Positions 39,244 through 48,032 of a DNA stretch of 64,000 bases are shown one piece after another. The translations under genes and the position numbers were made by a program. The notes under the pieces were generated by a model. It was not told the DNA's origin. It made no database searches and saw nothing but the letters and a program-made list of their open reading frames with translations. The stretch lies in contig NZ_CP076019.1 of NCBI RefSeq assembly GCF_018623055.1, positions 1,736,001 through 1,800,000 on the forward strand. The letters run 5' to 3'. This DNA comes from Halorubrum sp. 2020YC2 (GTDB lineage Archaea; Halobacteriota; Halobacteria; Halobacteriales; Haloferacaceae). Numbering within the stretch: position 1 is the first letter of the stretch; the number at the start of each line of letters is the position of its first letter.

Positions 39244-41238
39244 TCAATCGTCCGACTCGGTCGCTGCGGCGGGGTCGATCGCGTGCCCGTCCAACGGGGT
39301 CGCGTCGTCGACGACGCCCGCGAGGCCGAGCCGATCGAGGGTGTCCGGCGTCGGAAGGCCGCGGTCCCCCCAGCCGCGCGCCGCGTAGTACCGGTCGAGC
39401 AGGCGGTCGAACGCGTCGGCGTCGACGCCCGGCGTCCCGTCGGCCGCGGCCGAGCGGAGCGGCTCGGGGAGCGCGTCGTCCGCGCGGTCGAACCCCTCGC
39501 GGGCGTTGAACAGCCGGGTGAGCGTCCAGATCCGCTCGCCCGTCGTCGCGAGCGCCGCGACGGGGTCCCGCGAGTCGTCCGGGGAGTCGCCGCGGTCGAC
39601 GTTGACGTCGGCGTCGCGGTCGACATCGGCACCGCGGTCGATGTCGTCCACGGCCGGATGGTCGACCGCCGCGAGCCACTCCGCGCCGAGGTCGGTCCAG
39701 ACGGCCTCGCCCACGAAGTCGTCGACGACGAGGCTCCACAGCACGGACCGGGCGTTCTGCTCACCGACCACGTCGCGCACCCGGTCGACGGGCGAGCGGT
39801 CCGGGCTGGCGAGGGGTTCGCGGTCCTGCGGCCGCGCGCGTCGGTGGCAGGCCCCGCGGTCGCTCGTGGCGTACGCGAGCGCGACGCCGACCGCCGCGCG
39901 CGGGTCGAAGCCGGGCAGCGCCATCGACTTCACCGTGGGCACGAGTTCCGCGCCGCCGAACCGGGCGACCGCGGCGTCGATCCCGTCCGCGAGCGCGTCC
40001 GGCAGGTCGGGGTGGACGTCGAGGTCGGCGGGGGCCTCGCGCGCCGCGATCGCCTCCAGCAGGCGCTCGGCGCCGTCGGCGTCACCGAACGCGACCGGGC
40101 AGTCGACGACGCCTGCCTCCCCGGCGCGGACCGCCCACGCGACCGCGTTGCCCGCGCCGATCACGTCGAGGCCGAGGCGGTCGCAGACCCCGCAGAGCTC
40201 GACGACGCGGTCGAAGTCGTCGACGCCGAGCCCGGCCCCGAGCGTGATCGGCGCCGCGCCGCGCGGGACCACCTCCCCCTCCGAGGTGTCGATCCGGAAG
40301 CCGTCGGAGCGGGCCGGGTCCGTCTCTCCGGGGTCGCCGTCCGCGGTCTCTCCGGCGTCGCCGTCCGCGGTCTCCCCCCGGTCACCGTCCGCCGCCTCGT
40401 CGTCAACTCCCTCACGCCCCGTCGCGCGCGCTAACGCGGCCTCGACGCCGATGTCGTCGGTGCCGTCGAAGCCGGTCCCCGTCCACCCCTCCGCCGCGAG
40501 GATCCCGACCTCGTTCGCGTAGTCGACCGTCTCGACCGTGCCGCCGGCTGCCTGCCACTCGCCGGTCGAATCCCGCCTGTAGGCCGCGGCATCGCGGTCG
40601 CGGAGGGCCGCGAGGTCGTCCGGGACCGTCGGCGCCGGGTCGCGGGCGACGACGGCCTTCAGCCCCTTCGCGCCCATCACCGCGCCGGCGCCGCCGCGCC
40701 CCGCGTGGTGGTCGCCGCCGTCGCTCGCTATCGTCGCGTACGCCGCCTCGCGCTCGCCGGCCGGGCCGACGCAGGCGACCCCGGCGTCCGGGAACCGCGC
40801 CGCGGTCTCGGCGGCGTCGGCGCCCCACGTGTCGCTCGGTTCGATCCGGGCGCGGCCGCCCTCGACCTCGATCCGGACCGGTCGGTCGGCGGCGCCGGTC
40901 ACGAGCAGCCCGAGGCAGTCGTCGAGCGACCCCGCCAGCCGGTCGGCGAAGGCGCCGCCGGCGTACGAGTCGAGGAAGCCGCCGGTGAGCGGCGACTTCG
41001 TCACCGCGGCGTAGCGCGTCTCGCCCGGGAGGGAGCCCGCGAGCGGGCCGACGAGGAACGCGAGGAGGTTCGCCGGGCCGGTCGGGTCCGTCCCGGGCGA
41101 CAGCTCCTCGTAGAGGTAGCGCGCCCCGAGCCCCTTCCCGCCGACGTAGTCGCGCTGCCAACCGCGCGGGACGCGCTCGCGGGCGGTCTCGCCCGTCGAG
41201 AGGTCGACGCGGAGGACGCGGGTGCGACTCCGAGCCAT
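39244..41238 (-). CDS. Aldehyde ferredoxin oxidoreductase family protein lacking the Fe-S ligands
   Basis: This 664-residue protein has the AOR fold signatures: YVGGKGLGARYLYEEL, LTGGFLDSYAGGAFADRLAG, the pterin motif HAGRGGAGAVMGAKGLKAV (178-196) and ALAYATSDRGACHRRARPQ (454-472). The usual CxxCxxxC that holds the [4Fe-4S] cluster should fall around residues 270-330. It is absent; the place is taken by an acidic repeat (three DG...GET units, 283-306). The fourth ligand Cys, expected after residue 485, is also missing (ARSVLWSLVVDDFVG). It may bind a tungsten or molybdenum pterin without a cluster, or be inactive. Divergent yqeC-like gene next door. Confidence 0.82.
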   Translation of the reverse strand: MARSRTRVLRVDLSTGETARERVPRGWQRDYVGGKGLGARYLYEELSPGTDPTGPANLLAFLVGPLAGSLPGETRYAAVTKSPLTGGFLDSYAGGAFADRLAGSLDDCLGLLVTGAADRPVRIEVEGGRARIEPSDTWGADAAETAARFPDAGVACVGPAGEREAAYATIASDGGDHHAGRGGAGAVMGAKGLKAVVARDPAPTVPDDLAALRDRDAAAYRRDSTGEWQAAGGTVETVDYANEVGILAAEGWTGTGFDGTDDIGVEAALARATGREGVDDEAADGDRGETADGDAGETADGDPGETDPARSDGFRIDTSEGEVVPRGAAPITLGAGLGVDDFDRVVELCGVCDRLGLDVIGAGNAVAWAVRAGEAGVVDCPVAFGDADGAERLLEAIAAREAPADLDVHPDLPDALADGIDAAVARFGGAELVPTVKSMALPGFDPRAAVGVALAYATSDRGACHRRARPQDREPLASPDRSPVDRVRDVVGEQNARSVLWSLVVDDFVGEAVWTDLGAEWLAAVDHPAVDDIDRGADVDRDADVNVDRGDSPDDSRDPVAALATTGERIWTLTRLFNAREGFDRADDALPEPLRSAAADGTPGVDADAFDRLLDRYYAARGWGDRGLPTPDTLDRLGLAGVVDDATPLDGHAIDPAAATESDD
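40322..40393. repeat. Three tandem 24-bp repeats inside the AOR-like gene
   Basis: Units at 40322-40345, 40346-40369 and 40370-40393 are imperfect copies of 24 bases. They encode the in-frame acidic repeat of the AOR-like protein (residues about 283-306) exactly where the cluster motif would be expected. Expansion by slippage is likely. Confidence 0.75.
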
Positions 41239-42098: not shown

Positions 42099-42713
42099 CT
42101 ACGAAGAGTCGCCCGGAAGCTCCGCGAACGAGCGCCACAGCGCCCGGTACAGCGTCCACGCGTCGACGCCGGTCCGGTCGGTCACGGTCCGACAGGCGTC
42201 GTCGAACCGACGGTAGTCGGCGGGCGACGGCGGGTCCGGGTAGTCGCCGTCGAGTTCGCCGGCCGCGACCAAGACTGTCCAGGTCCGGCGGTCGATCGCG
42301 ACGAACCGCGACGGCGCGAGGAACTGACAGAAGCCGGACGCGACCGCGACGTCGACCCCGTCGAGCGCGGTGAGCGCGTCGAGGGCGGCGGTGACGTCCG
42401 CCTCCTCGGCGTCGGCCCCCTCGCTCTCCCCGGCGCCCACCGCCTCGACGGCGGCCTCGATGGCGGCTATCACGTCGTCGAACCCGTTGTCGCGGAACGA
42501 CTCCTCGCGCTCGCGCCGCTCGCGGTCCGGGTACTCCCCGAGGTACCGCCGGAAGTACCACCGGACGATCCACTGGGCGTCCCGGCGGCCGTACTCGTCG
42601 CCGGCGAACGTCTGCGGGACGGTCTCGACGTGCTGGCGCTCCACGTCGTACAGCGGTTCCGACTCCGCGTACGCCCGCGCCCGGTCCCGGACGGTCGACT
42701 CGCTCAGGTCCAT
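42099..42713 (-). CDS. Helical hypothetical protein with a DNA-glycosylase-like HhH segment
   Basis: This 204-residue soluble protein starts at MDLSESTVRDRARAYAESEP. Residues 130-165 (LDGVDVAVASGFCQFLAPSR) resemble the helix-hairpin-helix stretch found in HhH proteins, followed by FVAIDRRTWTVL. No catalytic Lys/Asp of the glycosylase family is clear. Function unknown. Its end lies 2 bases from the YqeC stop (convergent). Confidence 0.6.
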   Translation of the reverse strand: MDLSESTVRDRARAYAESEPLYDVERQHVETVPQTFAGDEYGRRDAQWIVRWYFRRYLGEYPDRERREREESFRDNGFDDVIAAIEAAVEAVGAGESEGADAEEADVTAALDALTALDGVDVAVASGFCQFLAPSRFVAIDRRTWTVLVAAGELDGDYPDPPSPADYRRFDDACRTVTDRTGVDAWTLYRALWRSFAELPGDSS

Positions 42714-42803
42714 CGCCTCGCGGTACGGCGGTGGGACGGATGAACGTTCGTCTCGATCGTCCCGATCGATCGTTTCATACTGTCGTGGCGGGTGATAGCA
42801 CAC

Positions 42804-43930
42804 ATGACAGACGACCGGATCCCGGTCACCGTCCTCAGCGGCTACCTCGGCGCCGGGAAGACGACGTTGGTGAACCACCTGCTCGCGAACCCGGGCGACA
42901 GGCGGATCGCGGTCATCCTGAACGACATGGGCGAGGTGAACGTCGACGCGGAGCTCGTCGCCCGCGAGAACGACGAGGAGGGCGTCGTCGACCTCTCGAA
43001 CGGCTGTATCTGCTGTCGGCTCCAGGACGACCTCCTCTCGGAGGCGGCGTCGCTCGCGGCGTCCCGGGAGTTCGACTACCTGCTCGTCGAGTCGTCGGGC
43101 ATCTCCGAGCCGGTCCCGATCGCGCGGGCGTTCACCGAGGGGACCGAGGACAGCGACGTCAACCCGACGGAGCGCTTCCGGCTCGACACATTGGTGACCG
43201 TCCTCGACACCTACGGGTTCTGGAAGGAGTTCGACGCGGGCGAGGACATCCCGGGCGACGGGGAGCCGGCGGCCGACCGCCCCCTCGCGGACGTGCTCGT
43301 CGAGGGGATCGAGTTCTGCGACGTGCTCGTGATGAACAAGACGGACATGGTCCCGGACGGCGTGCTCGACGAGATCGAGTCGGTCGCGGACCGGCTCGGC
43401 CCGCGGGCGAAGCGGATCCGGACGAGCTACTCCGAGGTCGACCCCGGCGACGTGCTCGACACCGGCCGGTTCGACTTCGAGACGGCCAAGCGGTCGCCGG
43501 GGTGGAAGCGGGCGATAGCCGAGAGCGAGGGCGACGAGGGGGGGACGGCCACGCGCACGACCACGACCACGCCGAGGGGGCCGCCGCGGCCCACGGCGTC
43601 GACTCGTTCGTCTACCGCTCGGCCGAGGCGCTCGACCCGGAGCCGTTCGCGGCGTGGCTCGACGACTGGGACGGGGCGATCGTGCGGGCGAAGGGCGTGG
43701 CGAACGTCGCGGGCACCGACGAGGTCATCGGCGTGAGTCAGGCCGGCCCCTCGGTACAGGCGGGGTCAATCGGCGAGTGGGACCCGGACGACGACCGCCG
43801 GACGCGGCTCGTGTTCATCGGCAGCGAGATGGACGAGGCGAAGGTTCGCGGCGAACTCGACGATCTGGCGACCGGGAGCGGGGAGACGGCGGCCGTCGAG
43901 GAGGCGGCGGCCGACGCCTTCCCGCTTTGA
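42804..43930 (+). pseudogene. CobW/COG0523 GTPase metallochaperone, split by a frameshift
   Basis: The N-terminal GTPase ([20 protein letters not shown], then [14 protein letters not shown] with the metal-binding CxCC, and [12 protein letters not shown]) is intact to about residue 246. The frame is then lost in a run of seven G (43538-43544); one added G restores a His-rich linker ([10 protein letters not shown]) and the complete CobW C-terminal domain ([20 protein letters not shown] to 43930). The repaired protein would be about 375 residues. Such proteins insert metal, often zinc, into clients using GTP. Either a real mutation or a homopolymer sequencing error. Confidence 0.85.
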
Positions 43931-44453: not shown

Positions 44454-45623
44454 TCAGGGCTCCAGCAGGACCTTCGTGACGCCCTCCTCGCGGGCGTCGA
44501 ACGCCTCGTACATCTCGGGGGCCTCCTCTAAGTCCACGCGGTGCGAGACGACCCACGTCGGGTCGGCGCGCCCCTCGATGATCATGTCGCGCAGGTACCG
44601 GTTGTACTCCTTGACGTTGCACTGGCCGGTCCCGCACTTGAGTCCCTTCTCGAAGAACTTCCCGAAGTCGATGCCGAGCCGCCCCTGTGCGGCCATGTCG
44701 TCGGGCGCGCCGGGGTCCTCGGGGACGTAGAGGCCGGGAATTCCGAGTTCGCCGGTCGGTCGGACCACGCGGATGAGGTTGTTGATCACGACCGCCGGGT
44801 TCTCCTTGGCCGGCTGGTAGGAGTAGTCCTCGGTCTCGGTGTCGACGTCGTCGGGGTCGGTCGCCTGGTAGCCGACCGCGTCGACGCCCTTGTCGACCAT
44901 CCCGCCGTGCTCCTCGATGATCTGGTCGACCGGGTCGCCCTCGGAGAAGTCGATCGGGTGGGCGTCGCAGTGCTCCTCGGCCAGTTCGAGCCGGCTCGGC
45001 ACCTGGTCGACGACGTAGATCTCGGCGGCGCCTTTGATCTTCGCGCTGTAGGCGGCCATCAGCCCGACCGGCCCCGCGCCGAAGATGGCGACCGACTCGC
45101 CCGGCTGGAGGTTCGCCAGTTCGGTGCCGTGCCAGCCCGTCGGGAAGATGTCCGCGAGCAGCGAGAACGCGTCCTCGTGTTCCCGGCCCTCCGGCAGCTT
45201 CAGCGCGTTGTGGTCGGCGTACGGGACGCGCAGTTTCTCGGCCTGTCCGCCCGGATACGGGCCCATGGCGACGTAGCCGTACGCGCCGCCCGCGAAGCCG
45301 GGGTTGACGTTGGTACAGAAGCCGGTGTACCCCTCCTCGCAGTTCTGACAGAAGCCGCAGGAGACGTTGAAGGGCATGACCACGCGGTCGCCCTCCTCCA
45401 GCGTCGAGACCGCCTCGCCGACCTCGCTGACGATCCCCATGTTCTCGTGGCCGAAGACGATCCCCTCCTCGGCCGCGGTCCGCCCTTCGTACATGTGGAG
45501 GTCGGAGCCGCAGATACACGAGGTCGTGATGTCGACGACGACGTCGTTCGGGTGTTCTATCTCCGGTTCGTCCACGTCCTCGACGGCCACGTCGTACGGG
45601 CCTTGATAGACAACTGCTCTCAT
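44454..45623 (-). CDS. fdhA: Glutathione-independent formaldehyde dehydrogenase-like zinc MDR enzyme
   Basis: This 389-residue enzyme closely follows the FdhA/formaldehyde dismutase family: MRAVVYQGPYDVAVEDVDEP, catalytic-zinc CICGSDLHMYEG, structural-zinc CGFCQNCEEGYTGFC, a cofactor fold IFGAGPVGLMAAYSAK, and the long insertion near residue 260. It would oxidise formaldehyde (or other aldehydes) to formate with NAD. The formate dehydrogenase gene is divergent 268 bases away, giving a likely formaldehyde-to-CO2 route. Confidence 0.85.
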   Translation of the reverse strand: MRAVVYQGPYDVAVEDVDEPEIEHPNDVVVDITTSCICGSDLHMYEGRTAAEEGIVFGHENMGIVSEVGEAVSTLEEGDRVVMPFNVSCGFCQNCEEGYTGFCTNVNPGFAGGAYGYVAMGPYPGGQAEKLRVPYADHNALKLPEGREHEDAFSLLADIFPTGWHGTELANLQPGESVAIFGAGPVGLMAAYSAKIKGAAEIYVVDQVPSRLELAEEHCDAHPIDFSEGDPVDQIIEEHGGMVDKGVDAVGYQATDPDDVDTETEDYSYQPAKENPAVVINNLIRVVRPTGELGIPGLYVPEDPGAPDDMAAQGRLGIDFGKFFEKGLKCGTGQCNVKEYNRYLRDMIIEGRADPTWVVSHRVDLEEAPEMYEAFDAREEGVTKVLLEP

Positions 45624-45890
45624 GTTGATTCCGATTGTAAGGAGTTACCAAACCGTAGTAAATGTTTTTCCATTATATTTACGTTTAATAACACTTATCA
45701 GCAACATGTTAACGGTACGGGATCGTGAAAACGTCGCTCGGACGAGGGGAGTAGATACCCGAAAGTTGCGTTTAGCGGCTTCGAAACGCCCGGTATCGGA
45801 TAACAGACGGATCCGCGAGGGTCACCGATACACTCATTGACTGCGACGATAGATCATGTGGTATGAGCACACAGAGGGGCGGTGAGACCG
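45624..45890. promoter_or_regulatory. Divergent promoter region of fdhA and formate dehydrogenase
   Basis: This 267-base gap is AT-rich at 45640-45705. On the minus strand a TTTACTACGG string lies about 35-45 bases before fdhA and may be its TATA box. The formate dehydrogenase side is less clear. No operator is obvious. Confidence 0.35.
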
Positions 45891-48032
45891 ATGTCCAGTG
45901 AGCCGGACGACGCGACGAAGACGATCTGCCCGTACTGCGGCGTCGGCTGCGGGATCCGCGTCCTCGAGGGGGACGAGCCCGGCGAGATGCGCTTCATGCC
46001 GTGGGGCGACGCGCCGGTGAACGAGGGGAGCGTCTGCATCAAGGGCGGCGCGGCGACGCAGGTCGTCGACCACGAGGACCGGCTGACGGAGCCGCTGATC
46101 AAGGAGGACGGCGAGTTCCGCGAGGCGACCTGGGGAGAGGCGCTCGACCGCGTCGTCGACGAGATGGAGTCGATCCGCGAGGAGCACGGTCCGGACGGGA
46201 TGGGCTTTTTCGGCTCCTCGAAGACGTTCAACGAAGAGAACTACCTCATCCAGAAGCTCGCGCGGCGGTACGGCACCAACCAGGTCGACAACTGTACGCG
46301 GATGTGTCACGCCTCCACCGTCTGGGCGCTCCGGACCAGCCTCGGGATGGGCGCGATGACGAACAGCATGGCCGACCTAGAGGACTCCGCGGACGTGCTG
46401 TGGATCCAGGGCGCGAACCCGGGCGAGCAGCACCCGATCGCCAACAGCCAGTACTTCCGGCAGGCCGTCTTGGAGGGCGCGACCGTCATCCAGGTCGACC
46501 CGCACGCGAACAAGACCACCCGGTCGTTCGAGATAGACGACACCGACCGGCACATGCACCTCCAGCTGAAGCCCGGCACCGATATTCCCCTGCTTAACAT
46601 CGTCCTCAAGACGATACTGGAGCGCCACGAGGAGGAGCCGGACGCGGGCTGGATCGACGAGGCGTTCGTCGCGGAGCGCACGAAGGGTATCGACCACCTG
46701 AAAGAGACCCTCGCGGACTTCGACGTGGAGGCGGCCGCCGAGGAGTGCGGCGTCCCGCTGGAGGACATCGAACTCGCCGCCGAGAAGTACGCGATGGCGA
46801 ACGACGCGGCCATCTTCACCGGAATGGGGATGAGCCAGCACACCTGCGGGGTCGACAACGTCCAAAACGAGATCAACCTCGCGCTGATCACGGGGAACCT
46901 CGGTCGCCCGGGTACCGGCGTCAACCCCCTGCGCGGGCAGAACAACGTCCAGGGCACCTGCGACGTGGGCGCGATGCCGAACGTCCTCCCGGGGTACCAG
47001 CTCGTCGACGACGACGAGGCCCGCGAGTCCGTCGAGGACGTGTGGGGCTTCGATATCCCCTCGGAGCCGGGGCTGACGAACGTCGAGATATCCCACGCGA
47101 TCGGCGACACCGTCCACGGGCTCTACGTCATGGGCGAGAACCCGATCATGAGCGAGCCGGACGGCAACCGGACCGAGGAGCGGTTCCGCGAGGACCTCGA
47201 TTTCATGGTGGTCCAAGACATCTTCATGACCGAGACCGCCGAGCTGGCGGACGTGGTCCTCCCCGCGACGACGTGGGCCGAACGCGACGGCACCGTCACC
47301 AACACCGACCGCCGCGTCCAGCGAATGCGCGGCGTCCACAAGGTCCACGAGAACACGCGTCACGACCTCGACATCCTCTGTGAGGTGGGGACGCGGCTGT
47401 TCGGCGGTGACGAGTTCGCGTTCGACGGTCCCGAGGACGTGTTCGAGGAGCTGCGCGAGGTCTGCCCGATCATGCACGGGATGACCTACGACGCGCTCGG
47501 GGAGACGGGGCTGCACTGGCCCTGCTACGAGGAGGGCGACGAGGGTGACCCGTTCCTCTACGAGGATGAGTTCGAGACCGAGGACGGTCTCGGCCGCATC
47601 GAGGGCGTCGTCCATCAGGAGCCGAAGGAGGTCCCCGACGATGAGTACCCGCTCGTGTTGACCACGGCGCGGCTCGAAGAGCACTACAACACCGGGACGA
47701 TGAGCCGCCGGTCGCCCACGCTCTCGAAGCAGCACCCCGAGAACTTCGTCGACGTTCACCCGAACGACGCCGAGCGGTACGGCATCGAGGACGGCGAGGA
47801 CGTGGTGTTGAAGTCCAGACGCGGCGAGATCACCGTCCGCGCCGACGTGACCGAGGACATCAAGGAGGGCGTCGTCTGGACCACGCCGCACTTCGCGGCC
47901 GCCTCCGCGAACCGCCTCACCAACGACGTGCTCGACGAGCGCGCCAAGATCCCCGAGTACAAGGCCGCCTCCGCCGAGATCGAGGTCGACATCGAGACTG
48001 CGGGCGACGACGCGGCGTCCGCCGACGACTGA
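45891..48032 (+). CDS. fdhF: Formate dehydrogenase catalytic (alpha) subunit, molybdopterin type
   Basis: This 713-residue enzyme oxidises formate to CO2. The N-terminal [4Fe-4S] site is CPYCGVGCG then GSVCIKGG. The catalytic residue is Cys139 in NCTRMCHASTVWAL (Sec or Cys in the family, so no Sec needed). The bis-molybdopterin motifs GANPGEQHPI, MGMSQHTCGVDNVQNEIN, GRPGTGVNPLRGQNNVQGTC and TTARLEEHYNTGTMSRRS are intact. A GTG at 45882 is an alternative start. No beta or gamma subunit is adjacent. Confidence 0.9.
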   Translation: MSSEPDDATKTICPYCGVGCGIRVLEGDEPGEMRFMPWGDAPVNEGSVCIKGGAATQVVDHEDRLTEPLIKEDGEFREATWGEALDRVVDEMESIREEHGPDGMGFFGSSKTFNEENYLIQKLARRYGTNQVDNCTRMCHASTVWALRTSLGMGAMTNSMADLEDSADVLWIQGANPGEQHPIANSQYFRQAVLEGATVIQVDPHANKTTRSFEIDDTDRHMHLQLKPGTDIPLLNIVLKTILERHEEEPDAGWIDEAFVAERTKGIDHLKETLADFDVEAAAEECGVPLEDIELAAEKYAMANDAAIFTGMGMSQHTCGVDNVQNEINLALITGNLGRPGTGVNPLRGQNNVQGTCDVGAMPNVLPGYQLVDDDEARESVEDVWGFDIPSEPGLTNVEISHAIGDTVHGLYVMGENPIMSEPDGNRTEERFREDLDFMVVQDIFMTETAELADVVLPATTWAERDGTVTNTDRRVQRMRGVHKVHENTRHDLDILCEVGTRLFGGDEFAFDGPEDVFEELREVCPIMHGMTYDALGETGLHWPCYEEGDEGDPFLYEDEFETEDGLGRIEGVVHQEPKEVPDDEYPLVLTTARLEEHYNTGTMSRRSPTLSKQHPENFVDVHPNDAERYGIEDGEDVVLKSRRGEITVRADVTEDIKEGVVWTTPHFAAASANRLTNDVLDERAKIPEYKAASAEIEVDIETAGDDAASADD

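Follow-up and report, generated by a model that had tools for sequence, protein, structure and literature searches.

The window under study, a stretch of 64,000 nucleotides from Halorubrum sp. 2020YC2, contains on its reverse strand (positions 39244-41238) a gene for a 664-residue protein (P0001) which, by its open reading frame, domain profiles and alignment, is an AOR/WOR-family protein (AOR, aldehyde ferredoxin oxidoreductase) devoid of the [4Fe-4S] ligands. The AOR-like gene is followed in the window by genes for YqeC, a conserved protein, a CobW/ZigA-like GTPase, a formaldehyde-dehydrogenase-like enzyme and formate dehydrogenase (FDH). YqeC (TIGR03172; 41365-42096, forward strand) is the divergent neighbour, at a distance of 126 bp. 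The conserved protein (42099-42707, reverse strand) has no Pfam or NCBIfam match and is a recurrent neighbour at FDH and AOR-like loci, seen in 9 of the 40 regions compared. The GTPase (42792-43930) is split over two frames near a seven-G run within its His-rich linker (about position 43540); since the gene is in one frame in ten relatives, the split is either a frameshift particular to this strain or an error of sequencing. The next gene (44454-45623, reverse strand) codes for a zinc dehydrogenase whose match to glutathione-independent formaldehyde dehydrogenase (TIGR02819) is close but, at 334.6 bits, below the cut-off. The FDH alpha subunit (45882-48032, forward strand) scores 721.7 bits against TIGR01591, which is above cut-off, and carries its Cys-His active-site motif at C142.

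The AOR-like protein matches both domains of its family, PF02730 (AFOR_N, 194.6 bits) and PF01314 (AFOR_C, 221.5 bits), far above cut-off. The domain search matched these AFOR domains only, with no FdhD-NarQ domain and no DNA-binding or other signalling domain. Its AF2 model (pLDDT 79) superposes on the AOR of Pyrococcus furiosus (PfAOR, 1aor) with a Z score of 38.4 over 551 aligned residues; confidence is low in the loops where the active site and the cluster would be expected. By domains and fold, the protein is thus a member of the AOR superfamily.

The residues discussed here follow PfAOR numbering (C288, C291, C295, T243, E313, D338, Y427, H448, D489 and C494), taken from alignments with 1aor; a joint alignment combined the window protein, 16 members of its clade and 21 other AORs. 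The sequence-only reading of this locus had noted that the CxxCxxxC motif and the fourth cysteine were missing, and the alignment bears this out. Known members of this tungsten-enzyme family pass electrons by way of the [4Fe-4S] cluster. The protein has six cysteines and no CxxCxxxC, and none of the four PfAOR ligand positions (C288, C291, C295, C494) holds a cysteine. In PfAOR the first three fall in 'pcyacpigc', and the corresponding segment is free of cysteine in the window protein and in all clade members compared. The fourth ligand column is occupied by Asp in every clade member (D506 in the window) and by Cys in 21 of 21 other AORs. The sequence-only reading would have been refuted had the CGVC at residues 349-352 aligned with the ligand columns. 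It does not: C352 corresponds to C337 of PfAOR, which belongs to the pterin motif (CDELGLD), and C349 is three columns ahead of it, so that neither is a ligand.

A linker (residues 262-328; 40255-40455, reverse strand) takes the place of the CxxCxxxC segment in the joint alignment. The acidic tandem repeat that was originally thought to replace the motif is real, consisting of three 24-bp units coding for GETADGD (40322-40392, reverse strand), yet it is a local, lineage-specific expansion within the linker and not the general replacement. Most clade members have a linker of 37-45 residues with the conserved end 'PGGFRV...GESVPRGA' (GFRI...VPRGA in the window), which forms two short paired strands in the model.

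The losses extend beyond the cluster. The E313 column holds Ala, Gly or Ser in 17 of 17 clade proteins compared (A328 in the window) and Glu or Asp in other AORs. The first pterin motif (DxxGLD) is kept, with D/N and G/A variation in the clade, and appears in the window protein as CDRLGLD (residues 352-358, aligned with PfAOR C337-D343; 40165-40185, reverse strand). The second (DxxGLC) is altered: in WSLVVDDF (residues 501-508; 39715-39738, reverse strand), which spans this motif and the fourth ligand site, W501 stands for D489 and D506 for C494, and the change of D489 to Trp is found in all 17 clade proteins compared. The equivalents of T243 and H448 are conserved across the clade, and H465 (PfAOR H448; 39844-39846, reverse strand) is invariant in it. 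The Y427 column holds Phe in the window protein and Tyr in the others compared. The second-shell set T243/E313/Y427/H448, whose four residues are nearly invariant in AORs (PMC12096430), is therefore incomplete, E313 being absent in all members compared and Y427 being Phe in the window. As judged from the residues, the loss of the cluster, E313 and D489 argues against ordinary aldehyde oxidation, and conservation of the fold, of the first pterin motif and of T234 and H465 argues for a retained pocket. The earlier suggestion of another electron path, or of a protein that has ceased to be an oxidoreductase, can be drawn from the sequence; the losses of E313 and D489 appear to favour the second option.

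These features are shared by a whole clade. CxxCxxxC is absent from 39 of 39 haloarchaeal loci, most of which represent one genus each, and from 80 of 80 loci of a second, partly overlapping collection (the best 80 of 571 matches, from haloarchaea or archaeal bins), and this recurrence excludes a sequence error as the cause. FastTree separates the cluster-free clade from cluster-bearing AORs with a support of 1.000, and thus the cluster was most simply lost once in the clade, as far as the tree can tell. Across 38 clade sequences the mean column identity is 52%, with more than 100 invariant columns, which implies that the protein is being maintained. No cluster-free member was seen outside the haloarchaea: 18 of 18 best matches from the other classes of the phylum retain CxxCxxxC, in a search which covered the best 80 of 571 matches and could miss distant cluster-free members. 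The motif is also retained in two other AOR genes of the same genome (L001 and L002) and in a haloarchaeal paralogue (L072:5880-7874) of about 40% identity. A protein search at E<=1e-60 mixes this cluster-bearing paralogue with true members, and the profile search separates them (E<1e-245 for true members, about 1e-182 to 1e-186 for paralogues, with one member truncated by a contig end); four genomes (G032, G162, G244 and G262) were left out as paralogues by profile score alone.

The L072-type AOR is the nearest cluster-bearing relative among the sequences of the tree. In common with the clade, it has an Asp following the C494 column, and its D489 is replaced by Phe; unlike the clade, it retains CxxCxxxC (CYNCPVAC), C494 and E313. 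The cluster-free clade may have descended from an ancestor most closely related to this paralogue. The Class I WORs, or AORs sensu stricto (P. furiosus AOR, 1aor; Haloferax WOR83, 9q1t), share with the clade AFOR_N and AFOR_C, the fold, the first pterin motif and the T243 and H448 equivalents, whereas the AOR-like protein is without the four ligands, E313 and D489 and is linked to YqeC, FDH and MobA. A Class I WOR is a single large subunit with a [4Fe-4S] cluster, and the cluster defines the class (PMC13328260); by its sequence the protein would thus belong neither to this class nor to the aldehyde-oxidising AORs. In WOR5/ASOR of P. furiosus one ligand is also Asp, but the three Cys and the cluster are kept (PMC12096430). 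Tungstoenzymes are described as carrying at least one nearby [4Fe-4S] cluster in a 2025 review (PMC12096430), and a 2026 classification reports very little variation of the WOR cluster ligands (PMC13328260). The cluster-free clade is an exception to this rule, and one that occurs in about half of the sampled haloarchaeal species. In open-licence PMC papers we found no earlier description of cluster-free AORs, of an association of YqeC with FDH in haloarchaea or of the lack of FdhD, and the clade appears undescribed in that literature.

Recurrent neighbours of the AOR-like gene in the 40 regions (about 14 kb each) are YqeC, the FDH alpha subunit, a MobA-like protein, a TorD/NarJ-type chaperone, DUF7124 and a 4Fe-4S/FlpD protein. 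The 39 clade loci include, within about 6 kb of the gene, YqeC in 19 cases, FDH in 22, MobA in 12 and a TorD-like protein in 10; yqeC, FDH or mobA is found in 31 loci and none of these partners in 8, where a single-copy gene would be expected by chance inside such a span in less than 1% of genomes. YqeC may be located on either side of the AOR-like gene, in either orientation, and at distances from immediate adjacency to several kb, and this varied placement indicates that the linkage is not simply inherited as one block. The formaldehyde-dehydrogenase-like gene occurs near the AOR-like gene in 5 of the 39 loci, and formate-THF ligase in some. A DUF7124 protein adjoins the AOR-like gene in 12 of 39 loci (e.g. 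L063:5413-6330).

Among 292 haloarchaeal genomes, 159 code for the AOR-like protein, 201 for YqeC and 208 for FDH, the latter called by TIGR01591 at E<=1e-200. YqeC is present in all 159 genomes with the AOR-like protein; 42 have YqeC only and 91 neither (Fisher 3e-43, kinship ignored). In the genus of the window (g1), 31 genomes have both and 4 have neither, and six other genera (g2, g6, g7, g24, g28 and g44) each mix both-present genomes with neither-present ones. FDH accompanies the AOR-like protein in 152 of the 159 genomes; no TIGR01591 match at threshold occurs in the other seven, one of which carries a Tat-type FDH beside the gene (L067). YqeC and FDH occur together in 191 genomes, 39 of them without the AOR-like protein, which is thus not essential for every FDH. 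NarG (TIGR01580), used as a control molybdoenzyme, gave no match in 232 genomes, its model being unsuited to haloarchaeal enzymes. The cofactor link suspected at the outset from the divergent YqeC-like gene is strongly supported by the presence of YqeC in 159 of 159 genomes with the protein and by the proximity of the two genes in 19 of 39 loci, and the homologue search has found the ligand loss to be clade-wide, with yqeC always present in the same genomes. A functional link of the AOR-like protein to YqeC, FDH and cofactor genes is well supported, though co-occurrence alone cannot separate a maturation factor from a metabolic partner. The losses of E313 and D489, the breadth of the clade, the linkage to FDH and MobA and the absence of FdhD go beyond what the sequence-only reading had noticed.

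YqeC is also part of the YqeB/YqeC/YgfJ module of selenium-dependent molybdenum hydroxylases (Haft and Self 2008, PMC2276186), in which YqeC and a MobA-type nucleotidyltransferase stand beside a Mo enzyme, as they do here. In the haloarchaea, by contrast, the neighbour is FDH and not a hydroxylase, SelD is mostly absent and the AOR-like protein is additional. SelD scored above cut-off in 12 of 145 genomes and not in that of the window. A selenium link for the main YqeC copy was considered and rejected, given the general absence of SelD and the fact that the YqeC copy at two loci of SelD genomes is only about 42% identical to that of the window. In 20 regions from genomes without the AOR-like gene, 18 of which include YqeC, YqeC is accompanied by MobA in 13 of 18 and by FDH in 12 of 18 (L154-L171). 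The haloarchaeal YqeC-MobA pair thus looks like an FDH-associated module to which the AOR-like protein is a frequent addition, and this company provides a functional context for YqeC outside the selenium hydroxylases. In the selenium hydroxylase setting, a C. difficile deletion gave no obvious phenotype (PMC11448449).

In bacteria, the FDH cofactor is sulfurated and delivered by FdhD (PMC13197769). FdhD (PF02634) was detected in none of the 292 haloarchaeal genomes, in a search that recovered it from 8 of 14 controls; on 20 genomes, TIGR00129 gave the same result. About 70% of these FdhD-less genomes carry FDH. The question is thus raised of how FDH is matured in haloarchaea without FdhD, and the vacancy could be filled by YqeC, MobA and the AOR-like protein.

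The explanation to which we assign an even chance is that a former AOR has been repurposed, as a carrier or insertase, to mature or deliver the Mo/W-pterin cofactor of FDH together with YqeC and MobA. The AOR fold would still hold a metal-pterin or its precursor, by means of the N-terminal domain, the CDxLGxD motif, T234 and H465; the bound metal-pterin would not be turned over by the protein, and would be presented to YqeC for a finishing step and/or to apo-FDH. YqeC carries a GAGGKKST motif, resembling an NTP-binding loop. We infer the binding of pterin, the absence of aldehyde oxidation and the role of carrier or insertase; with the second pterin motif deprived of D489, binding of the cofactor by the AOR-like protein is itself uncertain. 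A broader and more tentative proposal is that YqeC and MobA, joined in most YqeC-bearing species by the cluster-free AOR-fold protein, replace FdhD, finishing (e.g. sulfurating) the Mo/W-bis-MGD and delivering it to FDH, with the AOR fold as the cofactor carrier. The job proposed is that of FdhD, with which the AOR-like protein has no sequence match.

Alternatively, though somewhat doubtfully, the protein may be a cluster-free Mo/W-pterin enzyme of C1 or formate metabolism, either redox-neutral or with a soluble carrier or partner protein as its direct electron acceptor. Conservation of T243 and H448, and of Y427 outside the close relatives of the window protein, is consistent with such an enzyme, as are the neighbouring genes for FDH, the formaldehyde-dehydrogenase-like enzyme and formate-THF ligase. 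However, E313, to which the mechanism proposed for AORs in general assigns a part, is missing throughout, and Y427 is Phe in the window; a conserved redox partner subunit was not seen among the neighbours, and the protein nests strictly with YqeC and not with one metabolic gene. It is unlikely that the AOR-like protein is simply the client of YqeC, with FDH nearby only because both need the Mo/W cofactor. The presence of YqeC in every genome with the AOR-like protein, and the frequent adjacency of the two genes, would fit this relationship, but where the AOR-like protein is absent (the 42 genomes with YqeC only) YqeC is mostly found with MobA and FDH, and FDH thus appears to be its basic partner. 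Still less probable is a regulatory or storage role, with the protein acting as a sensor or store of pterin, tungstate or molybdate and making no delivery to FDH; conservation of the fold without known catalytic equipment is compatible with this, and the lack of signalling domains speaks against it. A pseudogene, an assembly error or a misalignment is ruled out for practical purposes by the same loss in more than 100 loci, by the more than 100 invariant columns and by the open frames.

Several counts speak against the repurposed-AOR reading: the 39 genomes with YqeC and FDH that do without the AOR-like protein, the seven AOR-like genomes with no TIGR01591 match at threshold, the 8 of 39 loci with none of the partners nearby, and 17 genomes that code for FDH without YqeC. 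Where the latter were read, their FDH is of another subtype, 757-806 aa long, and lies close to NuoF-like genes. At loci L171, L174-L176, L178-L180, L182 and L183, mostly from YqeC-less genomes, a 757-806 aa FDH with a NuoF-like gene has as its neighbour a further FDH-like catalytic subunit of about 620-820 aa with the motif DNRxRxCH.
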